Shown here: piece by piece, positions 2,091-23,248 of the stretch
Layout: the number at the start of each line of letters is the position of its first letter
Numbering within the stretch: the first letter of the stretch is position 1
Notes under the pieces: generated by a model
Told to the model about the DNA's origin: nothing
The model's database searches: none
What the model saw: only the letters and a program-made list of their open reading frames with translations
Made by a program: the position numbers and the translations under genes
From: Salinimicrobium sp. TH3
Lineage (GTDB): Bacteria; Bacteroidota; Bacteroidia; Flavobacteriales; Flavobacteriaceae
Reading direction: 5' to 3'
Assembly: GCF_026676115.1 (NCBI RefSeq)
Contig: NZ_JAPONB010000004.1
Span: forward strand, 186,001-250,000
DNA length: 64,000 nt

Positions 2091-2101
2091 AAATAAATAA
2101 T

Positions 2102-2707: not shown

Positions 2708-2720
2708 TAAACTGGATCTT

Positions 2721-4399: not shown

Positions 4400-5100
4400 G
4401 TATTAAAGACCTACATAAAAAATATGGACACCAGATCGTGTTGAACGGTCTGGACCTGGAAATAAAGGAAAAAGGCATAATTGCCGTTCTGGGTCCTAAT
4501 GGATCGGGGAAAACCACCCTTATAAAAAGCATTCTGGGAATGGTAGTTCCAGAGAAAGGAAAGATCGAGCTGAATGGAAAAAGTATTCTCCATAAATGGA
4601 ATTACCGGCAGGAGCTGGATTATCTTCCACAGATCGCCAATTTCCCCGGAAACCTGCGGGTACAGGAATTGATCACAATGATCAAGGATTTGCGGGGCAA
4701 GATCGCAAGGGATCAACAACTAATTGACTTTTTTGGTCTCCATCCCTACCTTGACAAAAAACTGAATAAATTATCGGGCGGTACCCGCCAAAAAGTGAAT
4801 TTATTGCTGTGTTTTATGTTCGACAGTCCGCTAATCATTCTTGATGAACCAACATCGGGACTTGATCCTGTTTCCCTGTTACGTCTGCGTGAGTTGATAA
4901 GGACCGAAAAACAAAGAGGCAAAACTATTCTTATCACATCTCACATCATGAATTTTGTGGAAGAGATGGCAGATCGGATTGTCTTTTTGCTGGACGGGAA
5001 GATCTACTTCGATGGCACTGTGAGTGAGTTAAAAACCTCTACAGGCCAGTTTGATTTTGAACACGCCATAGCGCACTTATTATCTGAAGAACATGTTTAA
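4393..5100 (+). CDS. nosF: NosF, ABC transporter ATPase for NosZ maturation
   Basis: Cytoplasmic ATPase partner of NosY. All ABC motifs are present in 235 residues: Walker A GPNGSGKTT (34-42), signature LSGGTRQKV, Walker B LIILDEPTSGLDP and a switch His in ITSHIM. The substrate handled with NosD is thought to be a sulfur species for the CuZ cluster (family knowledge). The start overlaps nosD by seven bases and the end overlaps nosY by eight. Confidence 0.95.
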   Translation: MVSIKDLHKKYGHQIVLNGLDLEIKEKGIIAVLGPNGSGKTTLIKSILGMVVPEKGKIELNGKSILHKWNYRQELDYLPQIANFPGNLRVQELITMIKDLRGKIARDQQLIDFFGLHPYLDKKLNKLSGGTRQKVNLLLCFMFDSPLIILDEPTSGLDPVSLLRLRELIRTEKQRGKTILITSHIMNFVEEMADRIVFLLDGKIYFDGTVSELKTSTGQFDFEHAIAHLLSEEHV

Positions 5101-6363: not shown

Positions 6364-7869
6364 TTATTTCTGAATTCTTCCGTAGAGCTCGTTTTCTTCA
6401 AACAGTTTTTCTGTATTTAAACTGGCTATTTCTTCAGAAGTTGTGCGCCAGCACCAATTTCCTTTCGTACTGCCGGGAGTATTCATTATGGCCTCACTCC
6501 CCAACCCTAAAATATCCTGCAAAGGTAGTATCGCTATGGCAGCAATAGATCCTAAGGCCATACGCCCCAGTACCTCATGAACATTTTCTTTAGTTATATT
6601 TTGACCGGTATAGCGATCCAAATGTTCCTGCACTTTTTTATCACTGTCCATAAGCCAGCCCCGCGTGGTGTTATTATCATGCGTCCCCGTATAGACAATG
6701 CTGTTGAACTGGTGGTTATAAGGAATATATGGATTCCTGCGGTTTGGATCCCCAAAAGCGAACTGCAAAACTTTCATTCCCGGGAAATCAAATTCATCCA
6801 GTAAGTCGTAAACGGGCTGGTCCAAAATTCCAAGATCTTCGGCTATAAAGGGCATTTCAGGAAATTCTGTTTGTACCTTTTTAAAGAAATCCACTCCGGG
6901 AGTATTTTCCCATTTTCCGTTGATAGCAGTCTTCTCCTCTGCAGGCACCTCCCAGTAATCGGCAAATGCCCTAAAGTGGTCAATCCTCACAACATCAAAC
7001 AACAGGAGATTTTGCCGCAGGCGCTCAAGCCACCATTGATATCCATCCTTTTTAAGTTCTTCCCAATCATAAACAGGGGTTCCCCATAATTGGCCTGTTT
7101 TACTAAAAAGATCTGGTGGTACACCTGAAATATGAGTAGGCTCTTTGTGCTCATCCAGTTTAAATATTTCGGGATTTGCCCAACAATCGGCACTGTCGTG
7201 ATTCACGTAAAAAGGTACATCTCCAAAAATTTTGATCCCCTGTCCATGTGCTTCGAGTATCAAACGGGACCATTGAGAAAAGAAGAGAAACTGAATAAAT
7301 TTTTCACGTTCGATTTGTTCACTCAATTCATGGCTTACTTTTTCCAGAGCTTCCGGTTCTCTATCTCGTAATTCTTTTGGCCAATTGGTCCAATTGGCTT
7401 TATCGTATTTGTAGTGCAAAGCCAGGTAGAGGCTGTAATTATCAAGCCATCCTGCATGCGTCTTTGTGAATTCAGCAAAGTCGGGATCTTTTTGATTACT
7501 GCTTTTAAATTTTTTATAGGCAGCAGTAAAAATTTGCTGCTTATACATTTCTACGTTCTCAAAAATGACCTTTTCAGACTTCATTCCTGAAGGCACAGGA
7601 AAATCCTTAAGATCGATATATCCTTCTTCCTCCAATAGTTCCAGACTAATCAACAGAGGATTTCCAGCAAAAGCCGAATGACTGCTGTAAGGGGAATGAT
7701 TGTAGATCCCATCTGTTGGATTCAAAGGAAGAATTTGCCAGTAAGTATATCCCGATTTTTTTAAAAAGTCGAGAAATTTAAAAGCTTCCGGGCCCAGATC
7801 CCCTATTCCAAATTCCCCTGGTAAGGAGGTTATATGTAAAAGAACACCACTGCTTCTTTCTAATTTCAT
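6364..7869 (-). CDS. malQ: 4-alpha-glucanotransferase (amylomaltase, GH77)
   Basis: Transfers alpha-1,4-glucan segments between maltooligosaccharides, and so supplies longer chains and glucose. At 501 residues it is the usual length for the short bacterial type. It has the N-terminal signature RSSGVLLHITSLPGEFGIGD, the nucleophile region VVRIDHFRAFADYWEVP, the acid/base region PFIAEDLG and the third acid in YTGTHDNNTTRGW. It is the last gene of the - strand unit treZ-GH57-treY-malQ, beginning only one base after the treY stop, so it is almost certainly cotranscribed. Its likely job here is recycling short oligosaccharides left by TreY/TreZ. Confidence 0.95.
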   Translation of the reverse strand: MKLERSSGVLLHITSLPGEFGIGDLGPEAFKFLDFLKKSGYTYWQILPLNPTDGIYNHSPYSSHSAFAGNPLLISLELLEEEGYIDLKDFPVPSGMKSEKVIFENVEMYKQQIFTAAYKKFKSSNQKDPDFAEFTKTHAGWLDNYSLYLALHYKYDKANWTNWPKELRDREPEALEKVSHELSEQIEREKFIQFLFFSQWSRLILEAHGQGIKIFGDVPFYVNHDSADCWANPEIFKLDEHKEPTHISGVPPDLFSKTGQLWGTPVYDWEELKKDGYQWWLERLRQNLLLFDVVRIDHFRAFADYWEVPAEEKTAINGKWENTPGVDFFKKVQTEFPEMPFIAEDLGILDQPVYDLLDEFDFPGMKVLQFAFGDPNRRNPYIPYNHQFNSIVYTGTHDNNTTRGWLMDSDKKVQEHLDRYTGQNITKENVHEVLGRMALGSIAAIAILPLQDILGLGSEAIMNTPGSTKGNWCWRTTSEEIASLNTEKLFEENELYGRIQK

Positions 7870-7870
7870 A

Positions 7871-10510
7871 TTAAGTATCTTGTTTTAAAAGTGCGACAGG
7901 AAAATCTTTAAAAAGATCTTTAACTGCGATTTCTTCTGAAGAAAATTCCTCTCCCGAAAAGACATTTTTGAAGGTTCCTGTAAAGTTTTTGGGCAGAACA
8001 ATTTTCAGCTCTTGCTGTAGGTCCTGTACCTGAAGATCTTTTGTAAAAAGATCCACTACCATCACGGGAACTACAATTATTGCAGCATTTTCTTCATCCC
8101 TGCGGGCGAAGGCGAGAATTTTATCTGCCATCTCCCCTTTTACTTCCAGCTGTACATACTCCCCTTTTTCAAAAGTGCCGGGAATTTCCAACCGAAAATT
8201 AAGTGCGCGATGAATGCAAAACATTTTTATTTTTCCAGAGGTATAGTCCTGTTTCAAATTTTTAATCTCCTGTTGAAGATCTTCAGGAAGCACAGAATTC
8301 AATTCTGAAAGATATTTCTTGCGAAGTTCGTAATCTACAGGTCTTCTGTTATCGGGATCCACGTAGCTAAGGTCCCAAAGTTCGGTTCCCTGGTAAACAT
8401 CCGGAATTCCGGGGGCGGTGATTTTCAGCAGAGATTGAGAAAGAGATTTTAGAGCTCCATAGGCAGAAATCTTTTTTTGAAAACCTTCAAAAGAATCTTT
8501 AAACTGCGAAGAGTTCAGCAGAGCCTTCAGGAAATCGAAAACTTTATTCTCATAATCAATATTAGGATCGGCCCATGAAGAATGCTCTTTTGCTTCCCGC
8601 AGGACTTTTTGCAGATAGGCAGTAGATCTTTCCAAAAATTCCTCTCCTGGCTCTCCTGAGTGAGGCCAGGCACCTATGAGCATCTGGAATATGAAATACT
8701 CTTCATTGGCATCGGGAACAGCCGGATCTTTTCTCAAATCTTTAGCGATTTCCCGCCAGTCTTCCACCTTTTTAAACCACTCTCCGCCAATTTCGCTCAA
8801 CACATTAATTCTCATTCGGGCATCTTCTCCACGTTTGGTGTCGTGGGTAGCGGTGGCATTTATTGAAAGCGGAAAATCTTCCATCCTCAATTTCATACGT
8901 TCATGAAATCCTGCTACAGAAAGCCCAAAATTTTCGGGAGAATCCCCTACTTCATTGTGAGAGATCAATTCATTGAAAATATAAAAAGTGGTGTCTTCCA
9001 CTCCCTTTGCGGCCAAAGGACCTGTGAACTGCTGACATCTTTGAAGAAACTGCAGCATGTTATCACGATCTTTTTGAGCTTCTCCCAGGAAGACATCTTT
9101 AACCTTCTCCAACTCCTTTTCCAGCTCGGGCTTAGTACGTTGTGCAGTTTGAAAAGCAGATTCTATAATTTTTTTCTGCCGCTTTCGCAGCGGATATTCT
9201 TCGGGATAGATCCTATAGACAGGGAAAGCAGCCAAAAAGGCTCCCAAAGCCTTCCGGTTATTTTCTTCATCCTCCAAAAGATCGAGATTTAAAGCCATTT
9301 CCCAAAGGTTCTTATATTCACCTCCCATTCTCTCGGTAAGGATGAACAGCTTTTGCTCATAAACCAAATCATTATAATCTGAGTTTTTAGGGTAAAGCTT
9401 TTGATAGGCTTCTAAAAACTTCTCCTCCCCTGTAGGATCGGTAAGCAGTTGATTCACTGTAGCCAGAAATCCGTATCCGCTGGTACCTTCAACAGGCCAG
9501 TGTACAGGTAGCTTTTCATCCCACTCCAGGATCTTCTCGATAGTGATATAAAAATCGGGGCCCAGTTTTTCACGAAGCCATTCAAGATACTCCTTGGGAT
9601 CTAAGAGTCCGTCAATATGGTCTATTCGCAGGCCGTGGATAAGGTTCTCTTCACATAACTGCAGAATAAAACGGTGATAACTTTCAAAAACCTTTTTGTC
9701 TTCCATACGAAGACAAATGAGATCATTAATCGTAAAAAACCTGCGGTAATTGATGTTTTCTTCGGTCTCTTTCCAGTGAGCCGGCAGGAAATACTGTTCC
9801 TCCAGCATTTCCTTCAGGTTTTCTTCGGAAGCATTTATCTCTTTTATCCTGCTGTTGATCTTATTTCTAAATTCGGGATCTTTCTGATATTCCCGCAGAA
9901 AGTATTCTTTCAATTCCTGCCATTTTTCCCCTTTTACCGATAAGTTTCTGAACTTTTCTTCCCATTTCCCCCCAAGTTGGTCGCCAAGGATGGAAGCGTA
10001 GGAACGCGCTGCAGCTAAATATTCATGATCAAAATACTTAAAGAAAAATCCCTTTTTTGAAACCTTTAGCTGCAGCTCTTTATTCTTAATTACTTTAGCC
10101 AAAGGATTTCCCAGAAAAGGTGCCATCACCTTACCCGATTGTTCCCAGTCAATATCAAAGGATTTGTAATGAGTAGATTCGGGACCTAGCTCAAAAATAT
10201 CCTGTAGCCAAACATTATTTCCGTCAAAGGCCATATGGTTGGGAACAATGTCCTGCAGCCATGACATGTTTTTCTGCTTCAGTTTTGAACTAATCTTTCT
10301 AAACATGTCAAGCCTCCCAATCTCTTTATTTAATCGAAAGGGATCGATAATATCATAACCATGACTACTTCCCTGGCGGGCCTGGAAAAAGGGAGCCGAA
10401 TAAACGGTCGAAATTCCAAACTCTTCGAGGTAATCGAGAATTTCATTGAGATCATCGAAAGTATATTCCGGAGAAAGTTGAACGCGATATGTTGAAACGG
10501 GATTTTTCAT
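7871..10510 (-). CDS. treY: Maltooligosyltrehalose synthase (GH13)
   Basis: Isomerises the reducing-end alpha-1,4 bond of maltodextrin to alpha,alpha-1,1, giving maltooligosyltrehalose. The 879-residue product has the TreY N-terminus TYRVQLSPEYTFDDL, DIVPNHMAFDGNN, the nucleophile region GLRIDHIDGLLDP, EGTSGYGFLATVNQLL, KGVEDTTFYIFN, ATATHDTKRGEDARMRI and PGIPDVYQGTELW. Its start overlaps the stop of the GH57 gene by one base. With TreZ, 2.5 kb upstream on the same strand, it forms the TreY/TreZ route from glucan to trehalose. Catalytic regions look intact. Confidence 0.95.
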   Translation of the reverse strand: MKNPVSTYRVQLSPEYTFDDLNEILDYLEEFGISTVYSAPFFQARQGSSHGYDIIDPFRLNKEIGRLDMFRKISSKLKQKNMSWLQDIVPNHMAFDGNNVWLQDIFELGPESTHYKSFDIDWEQSGKVMAPFLGNPLAKVIKNKELQLKVSKKGFFFKYFDHEYLAAARSYASILGDQLGGKWEEKFRNLSVKGEKWQELKEYFLREYQKDPEFRNKINSRIKEINASEENLKEMLEEQYFLPAHWKETEENINYRRFFTINDLICLRMEDKKVFESYHRFILQLCEENLIHGLRIDHIDGLLDPKEYLEWLREKLGPDFYITIEKILEWDEKLPVHWPVEGTSGYGFLATVNQLLTDPTGEEKFLEAYQKLYPKNSDYNDLVYEQKLFILTERMGGEYKNLWEMALNLDLLEDEENNRKALGAFLAAFPVYRIYPEEYPLRKRQKKIIESAFQTAQRTKPELEKELEKVKDVFLGEAQKDRDNMLQFLQRCQQFTGPLAAKGVEDTTFYIFNELISHNEVGDSPENFGLSVAGFHERMKLRMEDFPLSINATATHDTKRGEDARMRINVLSEIGGEWFKKVEDWREIAKDLRKDPAVPDANEEYFIFQMLIGAWPHSGEPGEEFLERSTAYLQKVLREAKEHSSWADPNIDYENKVFDFLKALLNSSQFKDSFEGFQKKISAYGALKSLSQSLLKITAPGIPDVYQGTELWDLSYVDPDNRRPVDYELRKKYLSELNSVLPEDLQQEIKNLKQDYTSGKIKMFCIHRALNFRLEIPGTFEKGEYVQLEVKGEMADKILAFARRDEENAAIIVVPVMVVDLFTKDLQVQDLQQELKIVLPKNFTGTFKNVFSGEEFSSEEIAVKDLFKDFPVALLKQDT

Positions 10511-12933
10511 TACAGGGAGAGATTAACAGATTCCTCAAGTTCGTGGAAAGCATGCACCCACTTGGAAGCAGACTCATCTCCATCTTCACCGCGTTTCAAC
10601 ATATCCTGGTATTGCTTTTCTTTAATTCCAAAAGTAATATTTTGTGCTTCCCATTTTTCGGGCGACAAAGGTGTGGCTTCCAGTAATTTAAGAAATGTAT
10701 TTACCTTTTTAAGCAACTTAAAATCTGTTGGATTCTGCTCCAGCTCCAGCATTCTTTCGGTTAGTTGCCGGTCCGCAAGGAAATTAAGGGTCACCATATC
10801 AAGATTAGCCTGTATTGACACTGCCGACTTTATTTGGCTTTCCAGTTTTTTAAGGTTGCAATCTTTCTTTTTAAGCTCCTTAATGAGCCTGTTATTTACT
10901 GCCATTTCCACCGGGAGCTTGAGTCTCGAAGGTACGCGCATATTGATCTCCTGGAAAGTCTTAAGCAAAGGATAAGTATTATCATACAGTTGTTGCATGG
11001 CCCCCTCGGCCCCTGTAAGGTTATTTTCCATCACCTGCTTCATAATGAGGTGTTGCTCATCACGAAACAAGTGCCAAAAGGAGTAATTGTGATTTCCAAA
11101 GTGCGTATCCATAAGATTAAAGATCTCGTAGATGTTCCCTTTTTCGAAATAAAATGACATTTTATCGTGAAGTTCTTCGAGGGCTTCGGGACTAATATAC
11201 TGCCTCACCCCTCCAAAAATATGATGATCTCCCATATAAAGCACCGCATAGGAAATATCGAGGTCTTCCCAGGTAATATCACTGCGAAACTCGGTGCGGG
11301 CGATCATTAATTTTTGTTTTCCGGCTTCATAGTAATGGCTGGCTTTAATGGTAGCACTAAAGTTGTAAAGTGAAACTTCTTCAGGGAACTCCTCGAAAAT
11401 CGAAGAGACGGCGTAGTGAGCACCAATCCTTATCATATCGAGCTCCATTGGTTTTACATACAGCTCGTAGGCTTTATGTACCGTTCCATATTCCGGAATG
11501 TTGCTCGGGATCTTCTTAAGGGATTCCACAAAATCGGGTTCATAACTGTCGCCACTTATCTCTTCGGCCAGTTGCACAGCCCTTTGCGCATAAAAAATGT
11601 CTTGCATAGACTCAATCCCACTTACCTCGTCAAAGAACCAGCCGCAGCTAGTGTACATCAACATAGTATGGTACTGCATTTCAAGCAGCTTAAGTAACTT
11701 AACTTCGTCTTCTTTAGAAAGCCCTTCCCCAAAATTTTCGGTAAGGAATTTTTTTACGTTGCCGGCCTCCCGGTCCAGGATCACCTGGATATATTTATTT
11801 CTCACTCCCCAGGGATCTGAAGAAAAAGGCTGCATTTTCTTTTCGTAAAGAGTAATAAGCTTTTCCCGTACCTGGTCAAATGCGTCTCTAAGAGGTTTAC
11901 GCCACTCTTGATTCCAATCTTCATTCCCTCCTGTATTACAACCACAATCGCTGCGCCATCGCTCTACACCGTGGTAACAACTCCATGAGGTATTTTCAAT
12001 GATCTGGGCCTCGTATTCGGGCGGGAATTTTTCAAGGAATTCGCCATAAATGGTGAGATTTAGATCTTCATCTTCTTCCAGGGAGTGCAGGCAGTAAGAA
12101 AGTGCCATCTCTCCCAGTTTATGGTGATGACCATAACTCTCTCCATCTGTAGCTATGTGTACCAGCTCCATGTCATCATCTTCGTCAAACTGGCCTCTTA
12201 ACCTGTCGGCAAAAGCTTCTCCATTATTAAGAAGACCTTCAAAAGCAACGGCCTGTGAAGCGGGGCCATCATAAAAGAACAGGCTTATCTCGTTACCAGA
12301 AGGTAAATTACATCTATAGGCACGGCGGGTATTTACTTTAGCGTCACTGGCGTCTTCCCAGTCTTTAGCACCAATCTTTCTCACCTGTTTTGCCTGGTAT
12401 GGAGATAGGATGGTGAACTTGATCCCGTGCTTGGCAAGCATCTCCAACACATCGGTATTTACCGCTGTTTCACCAAGCCACATGCCTTCGGGCATACGGT
12501 TATAGCGGGATTTGAAATCCTCAATTCCCCAAATTACCTGCGTTTCCTGATCTCGTTTATTGGCCAGGGGCATAATAAGGTGATTATAAGCCTGTGCCAG
12601 CGCAGACCCGTGTCCGGAAAAAGCTTCCTGGCTCTGCTTGTCGGCCTCCAGTATCGCCTCATAAGTTTGTGGCGTTTCACTCTGCATCCATGCCAGTAAG
12701 GTGGGACCTATATTAAAACTCATCCAGGCATAATTATTCATGATAGCCTGGATCTTCCCCTCCTCATCAAGAATACGGGAAGCCGAATTTCTTACGTAAC
12801 ATTCTGCATTTATCCTGTGATTCCAGTCGTGATACGGGTATGCCGATTCCTGTATCTCAACCTTGTTCAACCAAGGGTTTTCCCTTGGCGGTTGATAAAA
12901 ATGTCCGTGCACACATACATATTTCTTACTCAT
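10510..12933 (-). CDS. GH57 family glycoside hydrolase with DUF3536
   Basis: An 807-residue protein beginning with the GH57 strand HGHFYQPPRENPW (about 9-21), followed by AMSFNIGPTLLAWMQ-like and MPEGMWLGETAVNTDVLE, where a Glu is in the usual nucleophile neighbourhood, and DGESYGHHHKLGEMALSYC. The C-terminal half corresponds to the DUF3536 region found fused to this GH57 subgroup. GH57 members act on alpha-glucans (amylase, branching or amylopullulanase activities), but the DUF3536 subgroup has no activity I can name with confidence. It sits between treZ and treY, where other organisms often have the debranching enzyme TreX. One dispersed palindrome lies inside it (11149-11165). Confidence 0.88.
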   Translation of the reverse strand: MSKKYVCVHGHFYQPPRENPWLNKVEIQESAYPYHDWNHRINAECYVRNSASRILDEEGKIQAIMNNYAWMSFNIGPTLLAWMQSETPQTYEAILEADKQSQEAFSGHGSALAQAYNHLIMPLANKRDQETQVIWGIEDFKSRYNRMPEGMWLGETAVNTDVLEMLAKHGIKFTILSPYQAKQVRKIGAKDWEDASDAKVNTRRAYRCNLPSGNEISLFFYDGPASQAVAFEGLLNNGEAFADRLRGQFDEDDDMELVHIATDGESYGHHHKLGEMALSYCLHSLEEDEDLNLTIYGEFLEKFPPEYEAQIIENTSWSCYHGVERWRSDCGCNTGGNEDWNQEWRKPLRDAFDQVREKLITLYEKKMQPFSSDPWGVRNKYIQVILDREAGNVKKFLTENFGEGLSKEDEVKLLKLLEMQYHTMLMYTSCGWFFDEVSGIESMQDIFYAQRAVQLAEEISGDSYEPDFVESLKKIPSNIPEYGTVHKAYELYVKPMELDMIRIGAHYAVSSIFEEFPEEVSLYNFSATIKASHYYEAGKQKLMIARTEFRSDITWEDLDISYAVLYMGDHHIFGGVRQYISPEALEELHDKMSFYFEKGNIYEIFNLMDTHFGNHNYSFWHLFRDEQHLIMKQVMENNLTGAEGAMQQLYDNTYPLLKTFQEINMRVPSRLKLPVEMAVNNRLIKELKKKDCNLKKLESQIKSAVSIQANLDMVTLNFLADRQLTERMLELEQNPTDFKLLKKVNTFLKLLEATPLSPEKWEAQNITFGIKEKQYQDMLKRGEDGDESASKWVHAFHELEESVNLSL
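11149..11165. repeat. Dispersed palindrome, copy 2 (inside GH57 gene)
   Basis: ATAAAATGACATTTTAT, perfect eight-base arms around a central A. On the coding strand it encodes the peptide KMSF (in DKMSFYFEKG). Confidence 0.55.
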
Positions 12934-13009: not shown

Positions 13010-14830
13010 TTAAGATCTGTAGATCAAAACCGCTTCCGCAGGAACGTTGATTTTTCCTGAATTTAAAACGTCTTCAATTTTCCAGTCGCCTCCCCATTTT
13101 TTATCTGCAGAAGATATTAGAACCTGCAGTTTTTCTTTTTCTGAAATTTCTTCTGAATAAGCTGAACTTCCGAAGTTGTAGATACCGGTTAAAGCTGAAT
13201 TTCCATCCCGGGCCGAAACTTTCAGGATCCTCTTTTCTTCATCAGCTTCGGTATTAATACTTTGGCTTTTAAAAAGGTTAAAAGCGCCATCCTTTTTCAG
13301 TTTTATCAACTCTTTATAAAAGGCAAAGGTGTTTTTTTTCTGCGCTTCTTCTCTAAAATGCCAGTCAAGCCTGGAATTTTCAAAAGTTGTTTCAGCCTGC
13401 GGGTCGGGGAATTCTCCTTCAGCATGAGAATGGAAGAAATATTCAAATTCTTTTTTTCGCCCCTCCTGTACAGCTTTTACCAGGTCGGTATCCCCATGAC
13501 TAACAAAATACTGAAACCTGTTCTTTTCGCCAAACTCCTCACCCATAAAAAGCATAGGCACATAAGGGGACGAAATTATAGTTGCAGCAGCAAGTTTTTG
13601 TTTTTCAAAACTCACTAGTTCGGCCAGCCGCTCTCCCAGCAACCGGTTCCCCACCTGGTCATGATTCTGTATACATATTACGAAATTGGAAGGATCTAAC
13701 CCTTTGGGGCTGTTGCCAACGCTTCGTTTTCTGAAATTGGAATATTTACCGTCATAGACAAAAGCCTGTTTAAAAGCTTTTCCCAAATATTCCATTTTTC
13801 CGAAATCGGCATAATAACCGGCTTTTTCGCCGGTAAGAACAGTATGTAGGGAATGGTGGAAATCATCCACCCACTGGCCTTCCAATCCAAAACCACCTTC
13901 GGTATATTCTTTTACTAATTTTGTGTCATTAAGATCACTTTCGGCAATGAGATTGTATCTTCTCCCGGTCTTTGCCTCCAGCTCATCTGTCTTTTCACTC
14001 AGCTCTTTGAGAAAGTGTCTTGCGCCACGGTCTATGATCTCATGAACAGCATCCAGGCGAAGGCCGTCAAAATGAAAATCTTCCAGCCACATTAAAGCAT
14101 TCTGGATAAAATGATGCCTCACGGGATCTGAATATTCATCGTCAAAATTAAGGGCGCTTCCCCACGGAGTGTGATATTTATCTGTGAAATAAGGACCGTA
14201 CTGCGAAATGTAATTTCCTTCGGGTCCAAGATGATTGTAAACCACATCGAGCAGGATGCTGAAGCCCCGGTTATGACAGGCATCAATCAATTTTTTGAGG
14301 CCGTTAACTCCGCCATAACTTTCCTCGGCTGCAAAAGGATAAACCCCGTCATAACCCCAGTTACGCTCTCCCGGAAATTGTGCAATTGGCATCAACTCCA
14401 AGGTATTGATTCCCAATTCTTTAAGATGGTCAAGTTTTTCGATAATGGACTCAAAAGTTCCGGCAGGAGTGAATGTTCCCACATGGATCTCGTAAATGAT
14501 CATGTCGTCGATCTCCCTGCCTTTCCAGGAGTTGTCCTGCCAGGAATGACCTGAATGATCTATGACCTTAGACCAGGAATGTACACCCTGTGGCTGGGAA
14601 AGAGAGGCGGGATCGGGAAATTCATCTTTTTTATTCAGCCTGAACTTATACAGCGTTCCCGGCCTAATATTGTTGATGGTTTTACTCCAGTAACCTTGAT
14701 CATCTTTGGTAAGAGCCACCGGCTCCGGAATATTTTTTATGACTACTTCAATGGATTCGGCAAAAGGTGCCCATACGCAAAACTCAACCTCTTCATGTCC
14801 TATATATACTGCACCAACTTTCTTAACCAT
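13010..14830 (-). CDS. treZ: Malto-oligosyltrehalose trehalohydrolase (GH13)
   Basis: Cleaves trehalose from the end of maltooligosyltrehalose made by TreY. The product has an N-terminal E-set domain (VWAPFAESIEVVI) and a GH13 barrel with YEIHVGTFTPAGTF, GYDGVYPFA, nucleophile region GLRLDAVHEIIDRG, acid region LIAESDLND, QNHDQVGNRLLG and FMGEEFGEKNRFQYF, the last being typical of TreZ. I chose the ATG at 14830 (MVKKVGAVYIG, 606 residues): an in-frame ATG at 14857 adds nine residues, but a TAGCTTTG -7-like element at 14872-14865 would put transcription start close to it. First gene of the - strand operon. Confidence 0.93.
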   Translation of the reverse strand: MVKKVGAVYIGHEEVEFCVWAPFAESIEVVIKNIPEPVALTKDDQGYWSKTINNIRPGTLYKFRLNKKDEFPDPASLSQPQGVHSWSKVIDHSGHSWQDNSWKGREIDDMIIYEIHVGTFTPAGTFESIIEKLDHLKELGINTLELMPIAQFPGERNWGYDGVYPFAAEESYGGVNGLKKLIDACHNRGFSILLDVVYNHLGPEGNYISQYGPYFTDKYHTPWGSALNFDDEYSDPVRHHFIQNALMWLEDFHFDGLRLDAVHEIIDRGARHFLKELSEKTDELEAKTGRRYNLIAESDLNDTKLVKEYTEGGFGLEGQWVDDFHHSLHTVLTGEKAGYYADFGKMEYLGKAFKQAFVYDGKYSNFRKRSVGNSPKGLDPSNFVICIQNHDQVGNRLLGERLAELVSFEKQKLAAATIISSPYVPMLFMGEEFGEKNRFQYFVSHGDTDLVKAVQEGRKKEFEYFFHSHAEGEFPDPQAETTFENSRLDWHFREEAQKKNTFAFYKELIKLKKDGAFNLFKSQSINTEADEEKRILKVSARDGNSALTGIYNFGSSAYSEEISEKEKLQVLISSADKKWGGDWKIEDVLNSGKINVPAEAVLIYRS

Positions 14831-14864
14831 AGATATCTTTTCTTCCTGAATTTTCAATCACATT

Positions 14865-15024: not shown

Positions 15025-17004
15025 ATGAAAATAGATGGTCATAAGCGAGTTAGTATAAGAAATGTGAAACCCCAAATTGACTGTGGAAAGTACCCGATAA
15101 AAAGAGTAATAGACGAAGAAATAAAAGTAGAAGCCGATATATTTGGTGACGGCCATGATAAGGTGGACGCTGTGCTCCATTACCGGGAGAAAAAGAAAGG
15201 CAAAGGTCGCGAAAAGAAATGGCAGGAACAGCCTATGAGCTTTATAGGTAATGACCGGTGGACCACTACTTTCAAGCTTGGTGAAACAGGAGATTATGAA
15301 TACACCATTGAATCATGGGTAGATCACTACACAACCTGGCAGGACGGCCTTGAGAAAAAAGCTGCCGCAAACCAAAATCTTAAAACTGAACTTCTTATTG
15401 GAGCCGAACTTATGGAAGAAGCGCTTTCCCGCGCCTCTGCTCCCAATAAAAAGAAACTCAAAGAATGGATTGAGCTTTTACGGGACGAAGAGCATGAACA
15501 AAGAGCAGTTTCTGAAGCTTTGAGCGACGGTGCCTCCAAAGCGATGTATGAATCCCGTGATCGCAATAAAGCTTTCTCATACGATAAGACTCTTGAGGTA
15601 AGAGTGGAAAGAAAAAAGGCGCTTTTTAGTGCCTGGTATGAATTTTTTCCGAGATCTGCATCCCCCGAGAAAGGCCGTCATGGAACATTTAAAGACTGTG
15701 AAAATGTGCTGCCCGAGGTGGCAAAAATGGGGTTTGACACCATCTATTTCCCTCCTATTCATCCTATAGGGCGCAGCCACCGTAAAGGTCTCAACAATGC
15801 TACCGAAGCCGAGGAAGGAGATCCCGGATCACCATGGGCAATAGGAGCCAAAGAAGGAGGACATAAAGCAATTCATCCCGAACTTGGAACTATGGAGGAT
15901 TTCAAACGTCTCGTGAAAAAAGCCAAGGATATGGATATTGAAATAGCCCTTGATTTCGCTATTCAATGTTCCCCAGATCACCCTTATGTTAAGGAGCACC
16001 CGCAATGGTTCAAATGGCGACCAGATGGCACCGTGCAATATGCCGAAAACCCGCCCAAGAAATACCAGGATGTGCTACCCGTCAATTTTGAAACCGAAGA
16101 CTGGGAAAATCTTTGGGATGAACTTAAGAGCATCGTTGAATTTTGGATTGACAAAGGTGTAAATGTCTTTAGAGTAGATAATCCTCACACCAAGACTTTT
16201 CCATTCTGGGAATGGTGTATTAAGGAGATCAACAAAAAACACGAAGGCATTATTTTCCTTGCGGAAGCTTTCACCCGCCCAAGGGTAATGGAAGAGCTGG
16301 CGAAGATTGGCTTTAATCAATCCTACACCTATTTTACCTGGAGGAACACCAAAGAAGAATTTCAGGAATATCTAACAGAATTAACTAAAACTGAAGTAAG
16401 GGAGTACTACAGACCTAACTTTTGGCCGAATACACCCGATATCCTTCCAATATCACTTGAACACAGGGAAGAACCTTCTTTTATTATAAGGCTTATCCTG
16501 GCTGCAACCATGTCCTCAAATTACGGATTGTATGGACCCGTGTTTGAATTCGGCTTAAACGAGCCTTATCCAGGCAAAGAGGAGTATGTTCACTCAGAAA
16601 AATACCAGATCTATCACTGGGACTGGCACCGCAACACGCGCACCAAAGAAATGATAAGCATTCTCAACAGGATAAGGAAGGAAAATGAGGCGTTGCAAAC
16701 CACCTGGAATATAGAATTTTGTGATACAGATAATGACCAAATTATATGTTATTCCAAAGTAGACCAGGAGGAAAAAAATAAACTAATTATCGTTGTGAAC
16801 CTTGATCCCCACAATACTCAGGCAGGTTGGGTCCAGGTGCCGCTGGAACGTCTTAAAATTGAAAACCATGACTCCTACTCTGTAAGAGATCTTCTTACGG
16901 GAGCGAGTTATATATGGCAGGACGAGTGGAATTTTGTTGAATTACATCCACGGGCAATTCCCGCACACATATTAAAAGTTGAAACTAAAAAACCAATACA
17001 ATAA
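15025..17004 (+). CDS. glgE: Alpha-1,4-glucan:maltose-1-phosphate maltosyltransferase
   Basis: Adds maltosyl units from maltose-1-phosphate to an alpha-glucan. The 659-residue product has an N-terminal domain (about 1-190) including a helical insert, then the GlgE signature KALFSAWYEFFPRSASPE, FDTIYFPPIHPIG, nucleophile region VNVFRVDNPHTKTFPFWEW and acid region IIFLAEAFTRPRVM. These separate it from amylases. It is 10 bases before the treS-maltokinase start (17015), whose product makes its substrate from trehalose, so the two form a complete GlgE pathway with glgB downstream. Confidence 0.95.
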   Translation: MKIDGHKRVSIRNVKPQIDCGKYPIKRVIDEEIKVEADIFGDGHDKVDAVLHYREKKKGKGREKKWQEQPMSFIGNDRWTTTFKLGETGDYEYTIESWVDHYTTWQDGLEKKAAANQNLKTELLIGAELMEEALSRASAPNKKKLKEWIELLRDEEHEQRAVSEALSDGASKAMYESRDRNKAFSYDKTLEVRVERKKALFSAWYEFFPRSASPEKGRHGTFKDCENVLPEVAKMGFDTIYFPPIHPIGRSHRKGLNNATEAEEGDPGSPWAIGAKEGGHKAIHPELGTMEDFKRLVKKAKDMDIEIALDFAIQCSPDHPYVKEHPQWFKWRPDGTVQYAENPPKKYQDVLPVNFETEDWENLWDELKSIVEFWIDKGVNVFRVDNPHTKTFPFWEWCIKEINKKHEGIIFLAEAFTRPRVMEELAKIGFNQSYTYFTWRNTKEEFQEYLTELTKTEVREYYRPNFWPNTPDILPISLEHREEPSFIIRLILAATMSSNYGLYGPVFEFGLNEPYPGKEEYVHSEKYQIYHWDWHRNTRTKEMISILNRIRKENEALQTTWNIEFCDTDNDQIICYSKVDQEEKNKLIIVVNLDPHNTQAGWVQVPLERLKIENHDSYSVRDLLTGASYIWQDEWNFVELHPRAIPAHILKVETKKPIQ

Positions 17005-17014
17005 AGACAAAAAA

Positions 17015-20000
17015 ATGATCAAACCAATTCAAGCGAGCGATCAGGAAACCTGGTATAAAGATGCTATAATTTATGAACTTCATATCAAAGCTTTTTTTGA
17101 CAGTAACGGAGACGGAATAGGTGATTTCGAAGGCCTTCTCGAAAAACTGGATTATCTGGAAGATCTTGGTGTTACAGCTATTTGGCTGCTTCCTTTTTAT
17201 CCTTCTCCCTTAAAGGATGATGGATATGACATAGCAGATTACTACAGTATAAATCCCTCCTATGGGGATCTCGACACCTTTAAAAAACTTATCGATGAAG
17301 CCCATCAGCGCGGATTAAAAATCATTACCGAGCTGGTCATTAATCACACTTCAGATCAACACCCGTGGTTCCAGAGAGCCCGTAATGCCCCAATTGGATC
17401 TCCAGAAAGGGATTATTACGTTTGGAGTGATGACCCAGATAAATATAAAGACACAAGGATCATCTTTACCGATACAGAACCTTCCAACTGGACCTGGGAC
17501 CCCGTGGCAAAGCAATATTTTTGGCACCGTTTCTTTAGTCACCAACCCGATCTAAATTTTGACAATCCGCAGGTACAGCAGGAAGTATTCGATGTCCTGG
17601 ACTTCTGGTTCGACCTGGGAGTGGATGGCTTTAGGCTTGATGCTGTTCCATATCTTTTTGAAAGAGAAGGTACCAACTGTGAAAACCTTCCCGAAACACA
17701 TGATTTCTTGAAGAAGCTGCGGACCCATGTTGACAGCAAGTATGAAAACAAATTATTGCTGGCAGAAGCCAATATGTGGCCGGAGGATTCGGCTGAATAT
17801 TTTGGTGAAGGAGATGAATGCCATATGAACTACCATTTCCCTATAATGCCCAGGATGTTTATGTCGGTCAAAATGGAAGACAGATATCCGATAATGGACA
17901 TTATCGACCAGACACCCGATATTCCCGAAAACTGCCAGTGGGCAATCTTCCTTAGAAATCACGATGAACTTACTCTGGAAATGGTGACCGATGAGGAGAG
18001 GGATTATATGTATAAGGTGTATACTAAAGATCCACAGGCAAAGATCAATGTGGGAATTCGCCACAGGCTCGCTCCCTTGTTAGAAAATAACAGGAATAAG
18101 ATCGAGTTGATGAATGTATTGCTGTTCTCCCTTCCCGGAACTCCTGTTATATATTATGGAGATGAAATTGGAATGGGAGATAACTTTTACCTGGGAGACC
18201 GGGATGGCGTTAGAACGCCAATGCAATGGTCTTCACACCGTAATGCAGGTTTCTCACATGCCAATCCACACAAGCTTTATCTACCCGTGATCATTGATCC
18301 CTCATATAAATATGAATCTATCAATGTGGAGACAGAGCAAATGAATTCTTCTTCCCTTTTGTGGTGGATGAAAAGGATCATTAGCATGAGGAAAAAGTTC
18401 AAAGCCTTTGGACGTGGAGATATTAATTTCCTTTCTCCAAGTAATGCCAAAATTATTGCATATACCCGAACCTTTGAAGATGAGGATATCCTGGTGCTTG
18501 GAAATCTTTCCAGATTTCCTCAGGCTGCCGAATTAGACCTGGAGGCTTATGAAGGTTACATTCCTGTTGAAGTATTTAGTCATAATAAGTTTCCAAGGAT
18601 CACAGAACATCCATATTTATTCACGATGGCTCCTCATGGATATTACTGGTTCCAGCTGCAAAAAGAGGAAGGACACATAAAAAAATCTGAAACTCCCCTT
18701 CTGCAAGTTGATAATTGGGAACAATTACTTCAAAATAAGATCAGGTACAAATTCGAACACTATGTATTGCCTGAATATTTGAACTCCTGTCGTTGGTTTG
18801 GTGGTAAATCCAGGGTCATCCAGAACATTAATGTGGTTAATAAGGTTGATATCCCCGTAAAGGACATGCCTTCCACCTTAATTACCATTGAGGTAAGCTA
18901 CAACGACGGATTACCTGAAGTTTATCAACTCCCTCTAGGATTTCTAAGTCCCAGGCATGAAGAAGAGTACAAGGAAATACCTGCAAAAGGAATAATTGCA
19001 AAGCTTAAGCTGGGCGAAGAGGAAGGATATCTTTTTGATGCTGTTTACAGTGAAAGTTTTAGAAACGTACTGTTTAAGAACATCAAAAAGGGCAGAAAAC
19101 TTCAAAGTGGTCGAGCAAACCTGGTATTCTATCACAGTGAAGATACTTTTGAACCCGAAAAAGAAAAGGTCCATTCAAAGATCCTTAATGCCGAGCAAAG
19201 TAATACTTCCCTCATATTTGATAATAAATATTTTCTGAAGTTATATCGTAAACTGGATAATACCATTAATCCAGATCTTGAGATCACCAGGTATCTAACT
19301 GAAAAAACAGAGTATAAGAACTCTCCAAGATTTGTGGGTGCCATAGAATACAAACCCGATTCAAAGAACATCATTGTTCTTGGAATGATGCAGGACCTTA
19401 TTCCAAATCAAGGCGACGCCTGGGATTATACAAAGGATGCTCTAAACCGCTTTTTTGACAGGGTATTAACCTTACCTAAAGAAAAAGAGTTCGAGGCGGT
19501 AGAACATACTTTGACTCCACTTTCCTATCAGGATCTTTCAGAAAACATGCAGGAATTAATGGGTGCAATTTTCCCTGAAAGAATGTTCCTGCTGGGCCAA
19601 AGAACTGCAGAAATGCACAAAGCCCTGGCTGCAAATCCACATGAGAAAGATTTCGAACCAGAACCTTTCTCTCTGCACTACCAGAGATCGCTGTTCTCTT
19701 CCCTGCAGTCGCTCACGCGAAACGCCTTCCAAAATCTTCAAAAGAGTATAAAAACCCTTCCGAAGCATATTCAGGAAGAAGCACAGGAAGTGCTTAATAT
19801 GAAGAACGATGTACTCCAGGTGTTTAAAAAGGTCTATGACCATAAAATACCGATCATGAAAATAAGGACCCATGGGGATTACCACCTTGGGCAGGTTTTA
19901 TGGACAGGAAAAGACTTTGTGATCATTGATTTTGAAGGAGAACCGGCAAGATCGTTTAGTGAAAGAAGATTAAAAAGATCTCCCCTTCGCGATGTTGCGG

Positions 20001-20314
20001 GAATGGTTCGCTCATTCCACTATGCCGCTTTTGGAAGCATCCTGGAATCTGAACTGGATGCCCACAACAAAGAAGGGGACCTGGATAACTGGGCAGAAAA
20101 CTGGTATTATCTGGTAACACAGATGTTCCTTAAAGGCTACTATGAGCATGTTGGGGATAACAATTTCATTCCCGATGATGAGGAAGACACTAAGGTCCTT
20201 ATGCAGATTTTCCTGCTTGAAAAAGCGATCTATGAAATGAATTATGAATTGAACAATCGTCCAGATTGGGTTTTGATCCCGCTAAGGGGCATTAAATCAT
20301 GCATTAAACAATAA
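17015..20314 (+). CDS. treS: Trehalose synthase / maltokinase fusion
   Basis: A two-enzyme fusion of 1099 residues. The first half is a GH13 trehalose synthase (trehalose to maltose isomerase) with WYKDAIIYELHIKAFFDSNG, VINHTSDQHPWFQ, nucleophile region GFRLDAVPYLFE, LLAEANMWPED, FLRNHDELTLEMV and GVRTPMQWS. The second half (about 580-1095) is a maltokinase, with the phosphotransferase motif HGDYHLGQVLW (about 951-961) and IDFEGEPARSF. Together they convert trehalose to maltose and then maltose-1-phosphate for GlgE. A TTG start at 16979 would overlap glgE; the ATG at 17015 (MIKPIQASDQETWYKD) fits the family N-terminus better. Three bases separate it from glgB. Confidence 0.95.
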   Translation: MIKPIQASDQETWYKDAIIYELHIKAFFDSNGDGIGDFEGLLEKLDYLEDLGVTAIWLLPFYPSPLKDDGYDIADYYSINPSYGDLDTFKKLIDEAHQRGLKIITELVINHTSDQHPWFQRARNAPIGSPERDYYVWSDDPDKYKDTRIIFTDTEPSNWTWDPVAKQYFWHRFFSHQPDLNFDNPQVQQEVFDVLDFWFDLGVDGFRLDAVPYLFEREGTNCENLPETHDFLKKLRTHVDSKYENKLLLAEANMWPEDSAEYFGEGDECHMNYHFPIMPRMFMSVKMEDRYPIMDIIDQTPDIPENCQWAIFLRNHDELTLEMVTDEERDYMYKVYTKDPQAKINVGIRHRLAPLLENNRNKIELMNVLLFSLPGTPVIYYGDEIGMGDNFYLGDRDGVRTPMQWSSHRNAGFSHANPHKLYLPVIIDPSYKYESINVETEQMNSSSLLWWMKRIISMRKKFKAFGRGDINFLSPSNAKIIAYTRTFEDEDILVLGNLSRFPQAAELDLEAYEGYIPVEVFSHNKFPRITEHPYLFTMAPHGYYWFQLQKEEGHIKKSETPLLQVDNWEQLLQNKIRYKFEHYVLPEYLNSCRWFGGKSRVIQNINVVNKVDIPVKDMPSTLITIEVSYNDGLPEVYQLPLGFLSPRHEEEYKEIPAKGIIAKLKLGEEEGYLFDAVYSESFRNVLFKNIKKGRKLQSGRANLVFYHSEDTFEPEKEKVHSKILNAEQSNTSLIFDNKYFLKLYRKLDNTINPDLEITRYLTEKTEYKNSPRFVGAIEYKPDSKNIIVLGMMQDLIPNQGDAWDYTKDALNRFFDRVLTLPKEKEFEAVEHTLTPLSYQDLSENMQELMGAIFPERMFLLGQRTAEMHKALAANPHEKDFEPEPFSLHYQRSLFSSLQSLTRNAFQNLQKSIKTLPKHIQEEAQEVLNMKNDVLQVFKKVYDHKIPIMKIRTHGDYHLGQVLWTGKDFVIIDFEGEPARSFSERRLKRSPLRDVAGMVRSFHYAAFGSILESELDAHNKEGDLDNWAENWYYLVTQMFLKGYYEHVGDNNFIPDDEEDTKVLMQIFLLEKAIYEMNYELNNRPDWVLIPLRGIKSCIKQ

Positions 20315-20317
20315 ATT

Positions 20318-23197
20318 ATGGCTAAGAAAGAAAACAATAACAAAAAAGATATAGATAAAAATGTTTCAGAAACCGGAAAGGCTCCCAAAGCTCCTATAGA
20401 TAAAGGAAATACTTCTGCCGAAGAATCGGGGGACGTGAAGGGACCAAAAGGTGTAGGAAGTAAAACCCCGAAGAAAAGTGACACTAAAAAAACCTCTTCG
20501 GTTAAATCAACTTCTGAAAAGAAAACGGCAGCAAAGAAAACTTCAGCTACCAAAAAATCTACTACCTCAAAGGCAAAGTCAACCTCTGAAGAGAAAACCA
20601 AGCCAACAAAGCTAAAAACAGGTTTACCCAAAACTAAAATGCCCGATGCAAATAGTGCTGTCAAACCTAAACCTAAAAGCAAGGCCAGGAAAACATCTGC
20701 AGAAAAGAAAAAGCAGGATACGCAGTCTAAACCGGCAAAATTTCAGAAGCCTTTGACAGATGATCAGGTGCCCGATGTGGCTGCACCGGCAACCAAGGTT
20801 ACAACCACTCCAGAGGAGAATCCTGAGAAGAAAACCGGCACCCGAAAATCGGCAGGGAAGAAAGCCGCTGCTACTCCTAAAAGTGAAGCAAAGAAGGCAG
20901 AAAAAAAACCGGCAAAGAAAATGTCCCGCCAAAAAAAGGTTCCGGGAATAAGCGCCGAAGAGAAAATGAAGTTGCCCAACACTTCTCCTTCCGAAGATTT
21001 AAAAGATGCGGCTAAAGAAACAGCCGGTAAGATTAAAAAAACGGTATCATCCAAAAAAGGTTCTAAAAAGGACCTTGAGAAAAAAGCAAAGGATCTCATT
21101 CCCGATCCCGAGGATGTAAAAGCGGCAGCCGGAGGTTTAGCGGAAAAGGTGATCCCGGCAGCAGAAAAAGCTAAGAAAAAGCTAGAGGAAATTTTACCCG
21201 GTAAAGAAGAAGTAACCGCAGCTGCTAAAAAGGCGAAGGAAACAGTAGAAGACCTTACCACAGATAAAAAACAGGAGCAAAAATCCTCTTCAGATAAACC
21301 TGTAGAGGCCACTCTTTTTACAGAGTTCGATACTCACTTATTTAGAGAAGGAAAACATTATCACCTCTACAACAAACTGGGTTCTCACCTCATGGAATAT
21401 ATGGGAACCGAAGGAGTCTATTTTGCAGTTTGGGCTCCCAATGCCGAAAAAATTTCGGTAGTTGGGGACTTTAATAACTGGGATAGAGAAGCACATCCAA
21501 TGAACGCCCGCTGGGACAACTCAGGTATCTGGGAGGTATTTATACCCGATGCCAAAAAAGGCAGTTTGTACAAATATTTTATTAGATCAACAAATGGTTA
21601 TGAAGCCGACAAAGGGGATCCTTTTGCCTTTCAATGGGAAACGCCACCAAATACCGCCTCTATGGTCTGGGATCTTGAGAATACCTGGAAGGATAATGAT
21701 TGGATGAAGGACCGGGCAAAGAAAAACGGAAAACCGCAACCCATGTCTGTTTATGAACTTCATTTAGGTTCCTGGAAGAGAGTTCCAGAAGATGATCTGC
21801 GTTCTCTTAGCTATCTTGAACTTGCTGAGCAACTTCCAAAGTACATTAAGGAGATGGGCTTTACTCACGTAGAGTTTATGCCGGTAATGGAACATCCGTT
21901 TTTTGGATCCTGGGGTTACCAGATCACAGGATATTTTGCTCCTTCGAGCCGTTTTGGGACGCCGCAGGAATTTATGCAGCTTATTGATAGCCTGCACCAG
22001 GAAGGGATTGGAGTAATTTTGGACTGGGTTCCCTCCCACTTCCCTTCAGATCTCCATGGGTTACACTATTTCGACGGAACCTATCTTTACGAACACGCCG
22101 ATCCCCAAAAAGGATTCCACCCGGACTGGCAGAGTTACATCTTTAACTATGGCCGTAATGAAGTACGCTCCTTCCTTATTAGTAACGCATTATTCTGGCT
22201 TGATAAGTTCCATGCCGATGGATTGCGCGTAGATGCAGTGGCATCAATGCTGTACCTTGATTACTCCAGAAAAGAAGGAGAATGGGAGCCAAATGAATTT
22301 GGGGGTAGAGAAAACCTCGAAGCTATTAGTTTCCTTAAGGAATTCAATGAAGTAGTTTACAAAGAGTTTCCCGATGCCATTACCATTGCCGAAGAATCCA
22401 CAGCATGGCCAATGGTTTCCAAACCCACCTATATTGGTGGACTTGGCTTTGGAATGAAGTGGATGATGGGATGGATGCATGACACCCTTAAATATTTTAG
22501 TGAGGATCCAGTTCACAGAAAACATCATCATAATACGATCACTTTTAGCACGAATTACGCTTTTACAGAAAATTTCATGCTTCCGTTGTCACACGATGAG
22601 GTAGTCTATGGAAAACAATCCATTCTTAATAAAATGCCGGGGGATACCTGGAACAAGTTTGCGAACCTGCGAACGTTATATTCCTATATGTATTCTCACC
22701 CCGGAACCAAGCTTCTCTTTATGGGAGCTGAATTCGGGCAGAGTACAGAATGGAACCATGATTCCAGTCTTGAGTGGCATTTGACCAATGAAGCTCCACA
22801 TCGACAAGTCCAGGAAACTTTTAAGGAGCTAAATGAGCTCTATAAAAAGGAACCTGCCTTATATGAAAAAGCATTTTCCCCAGAAGGTTTTGAATGGGTG
22901 GATTATAATGATGAAGAAAACAGTATTATTAGCTTTTTACGAAAGGGAAATGATCCTAAAGACAACATTCTTGTGGTGTGCAACTTCACCCCTGTACCAA
23001 GGGAGAACTATAGGATTGGAGTGCAGGAAGCAGGAGACTGGAAGGAGATCTTTAACAGCGATGACGAAAAACTTGGAGGCAGTAATGTTAAGAATCACGG
23101 AAAAATTGAAAGTCAGGAATTGCCGGCACACAGGCAGAAACATTCTCTTTCTCTTACTATACCTCCCATGGCTGTGATTTACCTTAAGAGATCATAA
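20318..23197 (+). CDS. glgB: 1,4-alpha-glucan branching enzyme with long Lys-rich tail
   Basis: Makes alpha-1,6 branches in glucan. The enzyme proper begins near residue 331 with a CBM48/E-set domain (YFAVWAPNAEKISVVGDFNNW) and a GH13 barrel with HVEFMPVMEHPFFGSWGYQ, nucleophile region GLRVDAVASMLYLDYS, acid region ITIAEESTAWP and LPLSHDEVVYGK; its 629 residues match a normal GlgB. Residues 1-329 are an unusual extension. Roughly 1-210 is disordered, rich in Lys, Thr, Ser, Ala and Pro (for example SEKKTAAKKTSATKKST), resembling histone H1 tails. About 225-315 is predicted amphipathic helix with repeated AAAxxAKE patterns (EDVKAAAGGLAEKV, EEVTAAAKKAKETV). The ATG and reading frame are continuous, with no sign of a frameshift. 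Confidence 0.95.
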   Translation: MAKKENNNKKDIDKNVSETGKAPKAPIDKGNTSAEESGDVKGPKGVGSKTPKKSDTKKTSSVKSTSEKKTAAKKTSATKKSTTSKAKSTSEEKTKPTKLKTGLPKTKMPDANSAVKPKPKSKARKTSAEKKKQDTQSKPAKFQKPLTDDQVPDVAAPATKVTTTPEENPEKKTGTRKSAGKKAAATPKSEAKKAEKKPAKKMSRQKKVPGISAEEKMKLPNTSPSEDLKDAAKETAGKIKKTVSSKKGSKKDLEKKAKDLIPDPEDVKAAAGGLAEKVIPAAEKAKKKLEEILPGKEEVTAAAKKAKETVEDLTTDKKQEQKSSSDKPVEATLFTEFDTHLFREGKHYHLYNKLGSHLMEYMGTEGVYFAVWAPNAEKISVVGDFNNWDREAHPMNARWDNSGIWEVFIPDAKKGSLYKYFIRSTNGYEADKGDPFAFQWETPPNTASMVWDLENTWKDNDWMKDRAKKNGKPQPMSVYELHLGSWKRVPEDDLRSLSYLELAEQLPKYIKEMGFTHVEFMPVMEHPFFGSWGYQITGYFAPSSRFGTPQEFMQLIDSLHQEGIGVILDWVPSHFPSDLHGLHYFDGTYLYEHADPQKGFHPDWQSYIFNYGRNEVRSFLISNALFWLDKFHADGLRVDAVASMLYLDYSRKEGEWEPNEFGGRENLEAISFLKEFNEVVYKEFPDAITIAEESTAWPMVSKPTYIGGLGFGMKWMMGWMHDTLKYFSEDPVHRKHHHNTITFSTNYAFTENFMLPLSHDEVVYGKQSILNKMPGDTWNKFANLRTLYSYMYSHPGTKLLFMGAEFGQSTEWNHDSSLEWHLTNEAPHRQVQETFKELNELYKKEPALYEKAFSPEGFEWVDYNDEENSIISFLRKGNDPKDNILVVCNFTPVPRENYRIGVQEAGDWKEIFNSDDEKLGGSNVKNHGKIESQELPAHRQKHSLSLTIPPMAVIYLKRS

Positions 23198-23217: not shown

Positions 23218-23248
23218 TGCCCCGAATTGTTTCGGGGCATCTTTTTTA
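23218..23248 (+). terminator. Intrinsic terminator after glgB
   Basis: TGCCCCGAA (23218-23226) pairs with TTCGGGGCA (23231-23239) around a TTGT loop and is followed by TCTTTTTTATT. A strong rho-independent terminator ending the glgE-treS-glgB transcript, 21 bases after the glgB stop. Confidence 0.92.

Follow-up and report, generated by a model that had tools for sequence, protein, structure and literature searches.

A basic tail on the branching enzyme of Salinimicrobium

What purpose could a basic extension of more than three hundred residues serve on a glycogen branching enzyme? This question is raised by the glgB gene of Salinimicrobium sp. TH3, a member of the Flavobacteriaceae with a genome of 3.69 Mb, from which we analysed a stretch of 64,000 nucleotides (hereafter, the window). 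Here, glgB is a single open reading frame (20318-23197, + strand) that starts with ATG, contains no internal stop codon and encodes 959 amino acids. An earlier note on this DNA described a tail of about 330 residues ahead of a complete, normal GlgB, and this was borne out: the NCBIfam GlgB models cover residues 333-958, with CBM48 at residues 353-437, and the tail comprises residues 1-329 (Table 1). Model NF003811.1 scored 983 bits over residues 338-957 (cut-off 741), representing a full-length curated GlgB match (GH13_9). Moreover, D639, E692 and D760, which we take to be the GH13 catalytic residues, are present and were invariant across 15 sequences. The computed pI is 9.9 for the tail versus 5.4 for the core, and the tail contributes 35.1 of the 108.6 kDa. 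The long tail on GlgB is a real feature, and the observation is confirmed. A second CBM48-GH13 gene, which carries no comparable tail, is located on another contig of the host genome.

Table 1. Features of glgB and its neighbourhood (positions in the window)
Feature	Position	Strand	Basis
GlgB N-terminal tail, residues 1-329	20318..21304	+	ORF and translation; no domain above cut-off; genus-wide
Lys/Thr/Ser/Ala/Pro-rich part, residues 1-200; secondary structure prediction blank	20318..20917	+	composition; poor AlphaFold2 model
Conserved motif ISAEEKMKLPNTSPSEDLK, residues 211-229	20948..21004	+	genus alignment
Predicted helical block, residues ~226-319	20993..21274	+	low-confidence AlphaFold2 models
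Branching-enzyme core, complete: CBM48, GH13 catalytic domain, C-terminal beta domain	21305..23197	+	Pfam/NCBIfam matches
Terminator-like hairpin 3' of glgB, found on both strands	23218..23239	+	hairpin scan
treS-maltokinase fusion; stop codon ends 3 bases before glgB ATG	16979..20314	+	Pfam domains
glgE maltosyltransferase	15025..17004	+	GlgE N/S and C-terminal domains
CBM48-GH13 gene, treZ-like	13010..14857	-	Pfam domains
GH57 protein with DUF3536	10510..12933	-	Pfam domains
GH13 gene, treY-like	7871..10510	-	Pfam domains
4-alpha-glucanotransferase, GH77	6364..7869	-	Pfam domains

Make-up and predicted structure of the tail

The tail consists of 26% Lys, 12% Ala, 8% Pro, 19% Ser plus Thr and 14% Asp plus Glu, amounting to a net charge of +40, and it holds one residue from the set Phe, Trp, Tyr, His and Cys. 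Its densest 100 residues include 31 lysines, while the runner-up among the 46 ATG-started ORFs of at least 150 amino acids that the window holds in all six frames, including spurious ORFs, reached 18. The description of the N-terminal part as rich in Lys, Thr, Ser, Ala and Pro was upheld, and residues 1-200, described as disordered, are without predicted structure. For the region beyond, AlphaFold2 with six sequences predicted helices at residues 226-243, 249-260, 264-292 and 296-319, albeit with low confidence (mean pLDDT 57.6). The model of the whole protein (15 sequences; mean pLDDT 42.6) was poor even for the core, and the low pLDDT of the tail therefore proves little. Over the last 115 tail residues, amphipathicity relative to shuffled sequences gave a z of 1.6 in TH3 GlgB and of 0.7 to 3.3 over 11 species, with values of at least 2 in seven of these. 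Thus, of the amphipathic helical region proposed for residues 225-315, the helices are retained at low confidence, whereas amphipathicity is the weakest part of the observation since the moment is only mild.

A Pfam and NCBIfam search of tail residues 1-329 returned nothing above cut-off, and when 12 tails (TH3, ten other Salinimicrobium and one Gillisia) were compared with Pfam, none matched a family with an E-value below 0.016. The H1, Hc1, phasin and LEA families gave no match at E<=1 in these 12 tails, in a search whose HMMER filters may drop biased sequence. A PDB search with the tail profile yielded four weak matches, the best being a designed helical repeat protein (E 0.037). Reading of the translated tail revealed no KPAA-type tandem repeats, and KPAK twice. 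By the family tests that were run, the tail thus appears to be neither a histone nor a phasin nor a LEA protein. The likeness to histone H1 proposed earlier holds for the make-up and fails at the level of family matches.

Translation, selection and origin of the tail

A protein start near residue 330, the alternative named in the earlier note, was checked and is unlikely, because the span from codon -27 to codon +28 around the junction is free of ATG in all 13 genomes compared (11 Salinimicrobium, 2 Gillisia) and because the next ATG in TH3 glgB, at residue 359, lies inside CBM48 and would cut this domain. GTG and TTG codons near the junction share no single conserved position, and TH3 and L014 lack any start codon there. 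GGAGG directly precedes the MAKK start in 4 of the 13 genomes. Judged from these sequences, the tail is very probably translated.

Six species pairs were tried for dN/dS, and synonymous sites were unsaturated in two only. In these two pairs, the tail before its last 115 residues gave a dN/dS of 0.30 and 0.23, those 115 residues, which span the helices and the greater part of the motif, gave 0.12 and 0.06, and the GlgB core gave 0.02 and 0.03; dN/dS was <=0.30 for every computable pair and tail part. As an aside, the first of the two pairs, L006/L007, showed a dS of 0.10 in the basic part (20318-20959 of the window) versus 0.44 in the core, which is oddly about one quarter.

Neutral drift was simulated in 200 runs per species for nine of the ten genus relatives (L007 was left out). 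The simulated tails lost Lys and gained hydrophobic residues, and the real tails of the nine relatives did so less. With the base composition of the window, 0-4 of the 200 simulations per species, which are not independent tests because the species are related, were as poor in hydrophobic residues as the real tail. The contrast was weaker under the A-rich composition of the tail itself, where 0-98 of 200 simulations reached this hydrophobic share. The observed charge was reached in 7-53 of 200 neutral simulations with the window composition and in 21-105 with the tail's own; net charge alone is weak evidence and not decisive for selection under either. By the dN/dS values, purifying selection is acting on the tail.

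Other origins of the tail were rejected. Used as a query against the host genome, the tail retrieved, apart from its own locus, a single weak match (E 0.036, 30% identity) in an 897-aa frame that presumably encodes a cation ATPase. The tail block (125 alignment columns) matched at E<=0.01 in 6 of 397 family genomes; four of these matches were Salinimicrobium GlgB, and the other two, both in one other genus, were weak (0.004 and 0.009). As to a gene on the opposite strand, just 3 of 11 genomes keep an antisense frame uninterrupted over the full length of the tail.

Distribution of tails in the GlgB tree

Tailed GlgB was detected in 11 of the 12 genomes of the genus, and all 11 that have GlgB have the tail; the twelfth genome, which is 74% complete, has no such GlgB. 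The tails measure 238-375 residues, and their net charge, positive in 11 of 11, ranges from +22 to +42. At E<=1e-150, GlgB was matched in 236 of 397 family genomes, where the open frames outside the genus mostly span 630-670 residues and at most 716 among the matches listed. In the phylum, 160 of 395 genomes had a match at E<=1e-200. The two frames that exceeded TH3 GlgB among the matches listed (1009 in G444 and 1496 in G609) were discarded, since they are open upstream of the first ATG and their ORFs encode 729 and 622 aa; a frame of 723 in G023 (L031) showed the same upstream artefact, its first ATG lying six residues ahead of the core.

For the tree, 139 loci minus nine gave 130 cores, 129 of them different. 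The dropped loci comprised five from the own-genome CBM48 search (one being TH3 glgB itself) and four duplicates from genus genomes. The tree was computed by a quick method (LG+G4), with support below 80 on 39 of 126 inner branches, and its counts are not prevalences because part of the loci had been selected for resemblance to the full query with its tail. It splits into 57 and 73 rows, and every leader of more than 13 residues lies within the 57. The 73-row half, nearly all Flavobacteriaceae by label or kinship, has at most 13 residues before the core; these canonical GlgBs have the same core as TH3 GlgB, about 60-66% identical. In the 57-row half, leaders span 3-375 residues (median 64), and 16 rows have fewer than 30. 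Among the 41 leaders of at least 30 residues in this half, 38 are net positive and three neutral or acidic; likewise, 38 start with MAK and three do not. The general statement that branching enzymes are short N-terminally is accordingly correct for the 73-row half and incorrect for the half containing TH3 GlgB.

The search of Bacteroidota GlgB proteins suggested in the earlier note found the tail genus-wide in Salinimicrobium and mostly shorter ones in Pontibacter, Mucilaginibacter and Gillisia. The Pontibacter tails (six loci) have 117-181 residues and the two Gillisia tails 145 and 374, in both cases mostly with a MAK start and mostly basic; the long-tailed Mucilaginibacter loci have 55-124 residues, again mostly basic and with MAK, and L099 has only 20. 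Salinimicrobium and Gillisia form one supported clade apart from the other Flavobacteriaceae, in which S. marinum adjoins Gillisia (support 95). The tree gives this clade no settled place among Pontibacter, Adhaeribacter, Dyadobacter and others. This pattern would suit operon transfer between lineages and does not prove it. Within the sampled GlgB tree, tails are a habit of one half, of which the Salinimicrobium tail represents the extreme. Two loci stood out for other reasons: the GlgB of L111, a MAG labelled Bifidobacterium breve, falls among Flavobacterium rows and probably stems from a mis-binned contig, and GlgB matches with one in-frame TAA were found at L040 and, in a second genome of the same other genus, at L048.

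A conserved motif within the tail

Conservation is uneven along the tail. The motif at residues 211-229 has a mean pairwise identity of 0.936 (45 pairs, 10 of 11 species) versus 0.862 for the GlgB core, and the genus means are 49.3% for residues 1-200 and 53.9% for residues 231-315. L015 is the sole genus member (1 of 11) without the motif. In the two Gillisia tails it is absent or present in traces only, and by eye it was not seen in Pontibacter and Mucilaginibacter tails; the tail of Gillisia limnaea also lacks the helical block. When searched against the own genome at E<=10, the 47-residue stretch with the motif matched only itself.

The glgE operon and the alpha-glucan pathway

In TH3, glgB is the third gene of an operon, following glgE and the treS-maltokinase fusion. 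These two genes directly precede glgB at 12 of 12 named loci (4 Salinimicrobium, 2 Gillisia and 6 Pontibacter), and the same order occurs at two named Adhaeribacter loci. Three Mucilaginibacter loci with tails of 112-124 residues have no glgE within the stretch covered and several GlgBs of GlgE operons have short leaders, so that tail and GlgE context coincide in part only. Because neither glgC nor glgA reaches the curated cut-off in any of the 12 genus genomes, GlgE is likely the main route to alpha-glucan in the genus, although a glgA-like gene of 252-269 bits (cut-off 328) in 10 of the 12 genomes leaves room for doubt. The GH13 genes at 13010..14857 and 7871..10510 resemble treZ and treY, respectively. 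The region contains 15 terminator-like sites versus 9.2 expected from shuffles, and the hairpin behind glgB has the most G-C pairs. Elsewhere in the window, the translations indicate NosZ-like, NosD-like and ABC transporter genes at 44-5875 (+), presumably a nitrous oxide reductase cluster, and a glutamate-cysteine ligase family 2 gene beside a RimK-like ATP-grasp gene at 25549-28244 (-).

Possible functions of the tail

The most likely reading, which we put forward tentatively and by analogy, is that the tail tethers GlgB to a polyanion, be it the nucleoid or another one. On this reading, glgB would encode a branching enzyme of the GlgE pathway that brings its own tether. Through their charge, residues 1-200 would attach to a polyanion of the cell, most probably the DNA of the nucleoid; the motif and the helical block would act as a spacer and as a docking or self-association site; and CBM48 and the catalytic site would hold the growing alpha-glucan. 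In this manner, GlgB could pin glycogen particles to the nucleoid and promote their spacing and segregation, as PhaF and PhaM do for PHA and AlgP for polyphosphate. Such a tether is favoured by the composition of the tail, by its presence in all 11 genus genomes that have this GlgB, by the fact that basic tails are found in further genera as well (38 of the 41 longer leaders are net positive), by the retention of Lys and avoidance of hydrophobic residues relative to the neutral simulation with window base composition, by the dN/dS values and by the comparable layout of PhaF and AlgP. In addition, 4 of 6 Pontibacter tails (L066, L068, L069 and L072) contain [RK]GRP, which forms the centre of AT-hook motifs. 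Counting against it are the net charge, which neutral simulations often reach, the lack of KPAA repeats, the neutral or acidic character of 3 of the 41 longer leaders, the missing helical block of Gillisia limnaea and the scarcity of two sequence signatures within the genus. [RK]GRP occurs in 1 of 11 Salinimicrobium tails, and (S/T)PK(K/R), an H1-type motif, occurs once in the TH3 tail and is absent from 7 of 11 genus tails. Furthermore, the motif at 211-229 is the best conserved part, which points to protein docking rather than bulk charge. Such docking would be the task of a scaffold arm whose motif and helices bind GlgE, the TreS-maltokinase fusion or the tail itself, with the pathway concentrated on the particle and the basic part serving as a flexible linker or condensation aid. 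This possibility, the chief rival and only a little less likely than the tether, gains from the motif being more conserved than the enzyme, from the adjacency of the three genes at all 12 named loci and from the uniqueness of the motif stretch in its genome. It loses from the absence of the motif, or its presence in traces only, in L015, Gillisia, Pontibacter and Mucilaginibacter, and from the three Mucilaginibacter tails encoded at loci without glgE in the stretch covered. Tether and docking may both be true.

Weakly constrained growth of low-complexity sequence, in which tails lengthen and shorten with little function, would explain the spread of lengths within the genus and the tail-bearing half of the tree, the modest identity of residues 1-200 (49%) and the frequent match between real tails and simulations with the A-rich composition. 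We regard it as improbable given the dN/dS values, of which two pairs are unsaturated, and the near-invariant motif. Protection against salt or drying, or mere solubility, with the tail as an entropic bristle or LEA-like shield, would fit a hydrophilic tail that is rich in Lys, Ala and Glu, unstructured by prediction over residues 1-200 and, compared with the neutral simulation, poor in hydrophobic residues; moreover, Salinimicrobium comes from saline habitats. However, this role needs no conserved motif, the LEA families are unmatched at E<=1 in all 12 tails and no other ORF of the window has an equally Lys-rich stretch, which makes it quite improbable. Least probable, and by a wide measure doubtful, is adhesion of the helical block to the glucan particle or another surface in the way that phasin helices lie on PHA: helices are predicted and z reaches at least 2 in 7 of 11 species, but it is only 1.6 in TH3, phasin families gave no match, and glycogen is neutral and hydrophilic, with CBM48 already binding alpha-glucan.

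Returning to the tether, its extension to Bacteroidota with a GlgE pathway at large, which would pin nascent glycogen to the nucleoid via a basic GlgB tail and thus make the enzyme its own positioning factor, is rather doubtful. If true, glycogen would join PHA and polyphosphate as a third storage polymer managed through a histone-like tail, which in this case is part of the very enzyme that makes the polymer.

Relation to known systems

In the literature searched, of which subscription journals were mostly not part, we found neither a Lys-rich or disordered GlgB N-terminus nor glycogen work in Salinimicrobium, and no description of this feature, in which a housekeeping enzyme carries a basic extension of 35 kDa that is under selection and shared across the genus. 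The terms 'N-terminal extension', 'disordered', 'lysine-rich' and 'DNA-binding' are absent from the accessible part of a review from 2024 on alpha-glucan enzymes of prokaryotes (PMC11046441). Likewise, the accessible part of a 2025 review of organelle positioning treats PHB, polyphosphate granules, carboxysomes and magnetosomes without the word 'glycogen'. To judge from such excerpts, the placement of bacterial glycogen and its sharing between daughter cells seem little studied, and as the tail can be removed from the branching enzyme in culturable strains, the question is directly testable.

Among known systems, the closest are the GlgBs of Pontibacter GlgE operons. One of them, PoGBE13 of Pontibacter sp. 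SGAir0037, is the homologue for which branching activity is in print: according to the consulted sections it was purified, has a stated mass of 92 kDa (legend of Figure S1), is active and branches amylose; its cluster combines the GlgE pathway with GH57/DUF3536, GH77 and GH13_26 genes (PMC11206854). PoGBE13 and TH3 GlgB are alike in being branching enzymes tied to a GlgE pathway within a similar gene cluster. For six other Pontibacter GlgBs, the calculated masses are 85-92 kDa with the tail and 72-73 kDa without it, and the stated mass, rather than the PoGBE13 sequence, suggests that the enzyme was seemingly purified with its tail on. By analogy with this homologue, as far as its description was available, a branching enzyme can evidently work with a tail. 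The tail is also relevant to the application of such enzymes in modifying starch, because one purified homologue was apparently assayed in tailed form. The words 'N-terminal', 'disorder' and 'truncat' are absent from the main text of that paper (PMC11206854). The six Pontibacter tails (117-181 residues) differ from those of Salinimicrobium in being less basic and in lacking the Salinimicrobium motif and helical block.

Basic proteins of other storage granules offer a second comparison, drawn from the portions of the papers at hand. AlgP of polyphosphate granules has a Lys-rich, disordered, H1-like domain and a predicted helical part (PMC9239181). The TH3 tail resembles it in its Lys-rich, H1-like make-up plus predicted helical part; unlike AlgP, which is a separate protein, it is without KPAA tandem repeats and is fused to an enzyme. 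In PhaF, a basic, histone-like DNA-binding domain is joined to a granule-binding part, and PhaM is comparable, both acting at PHA granules (PMC5658603, PMC13052382). The likeness lies in the pairing of a basic part with a storage-granule part, DNA binding by the TH3 tail being a proposal only. In contrast to PhaF and PhaM, the TH3 tail is N-terminal and matches no phasin family, and the granule binder would be the enzyme itself.
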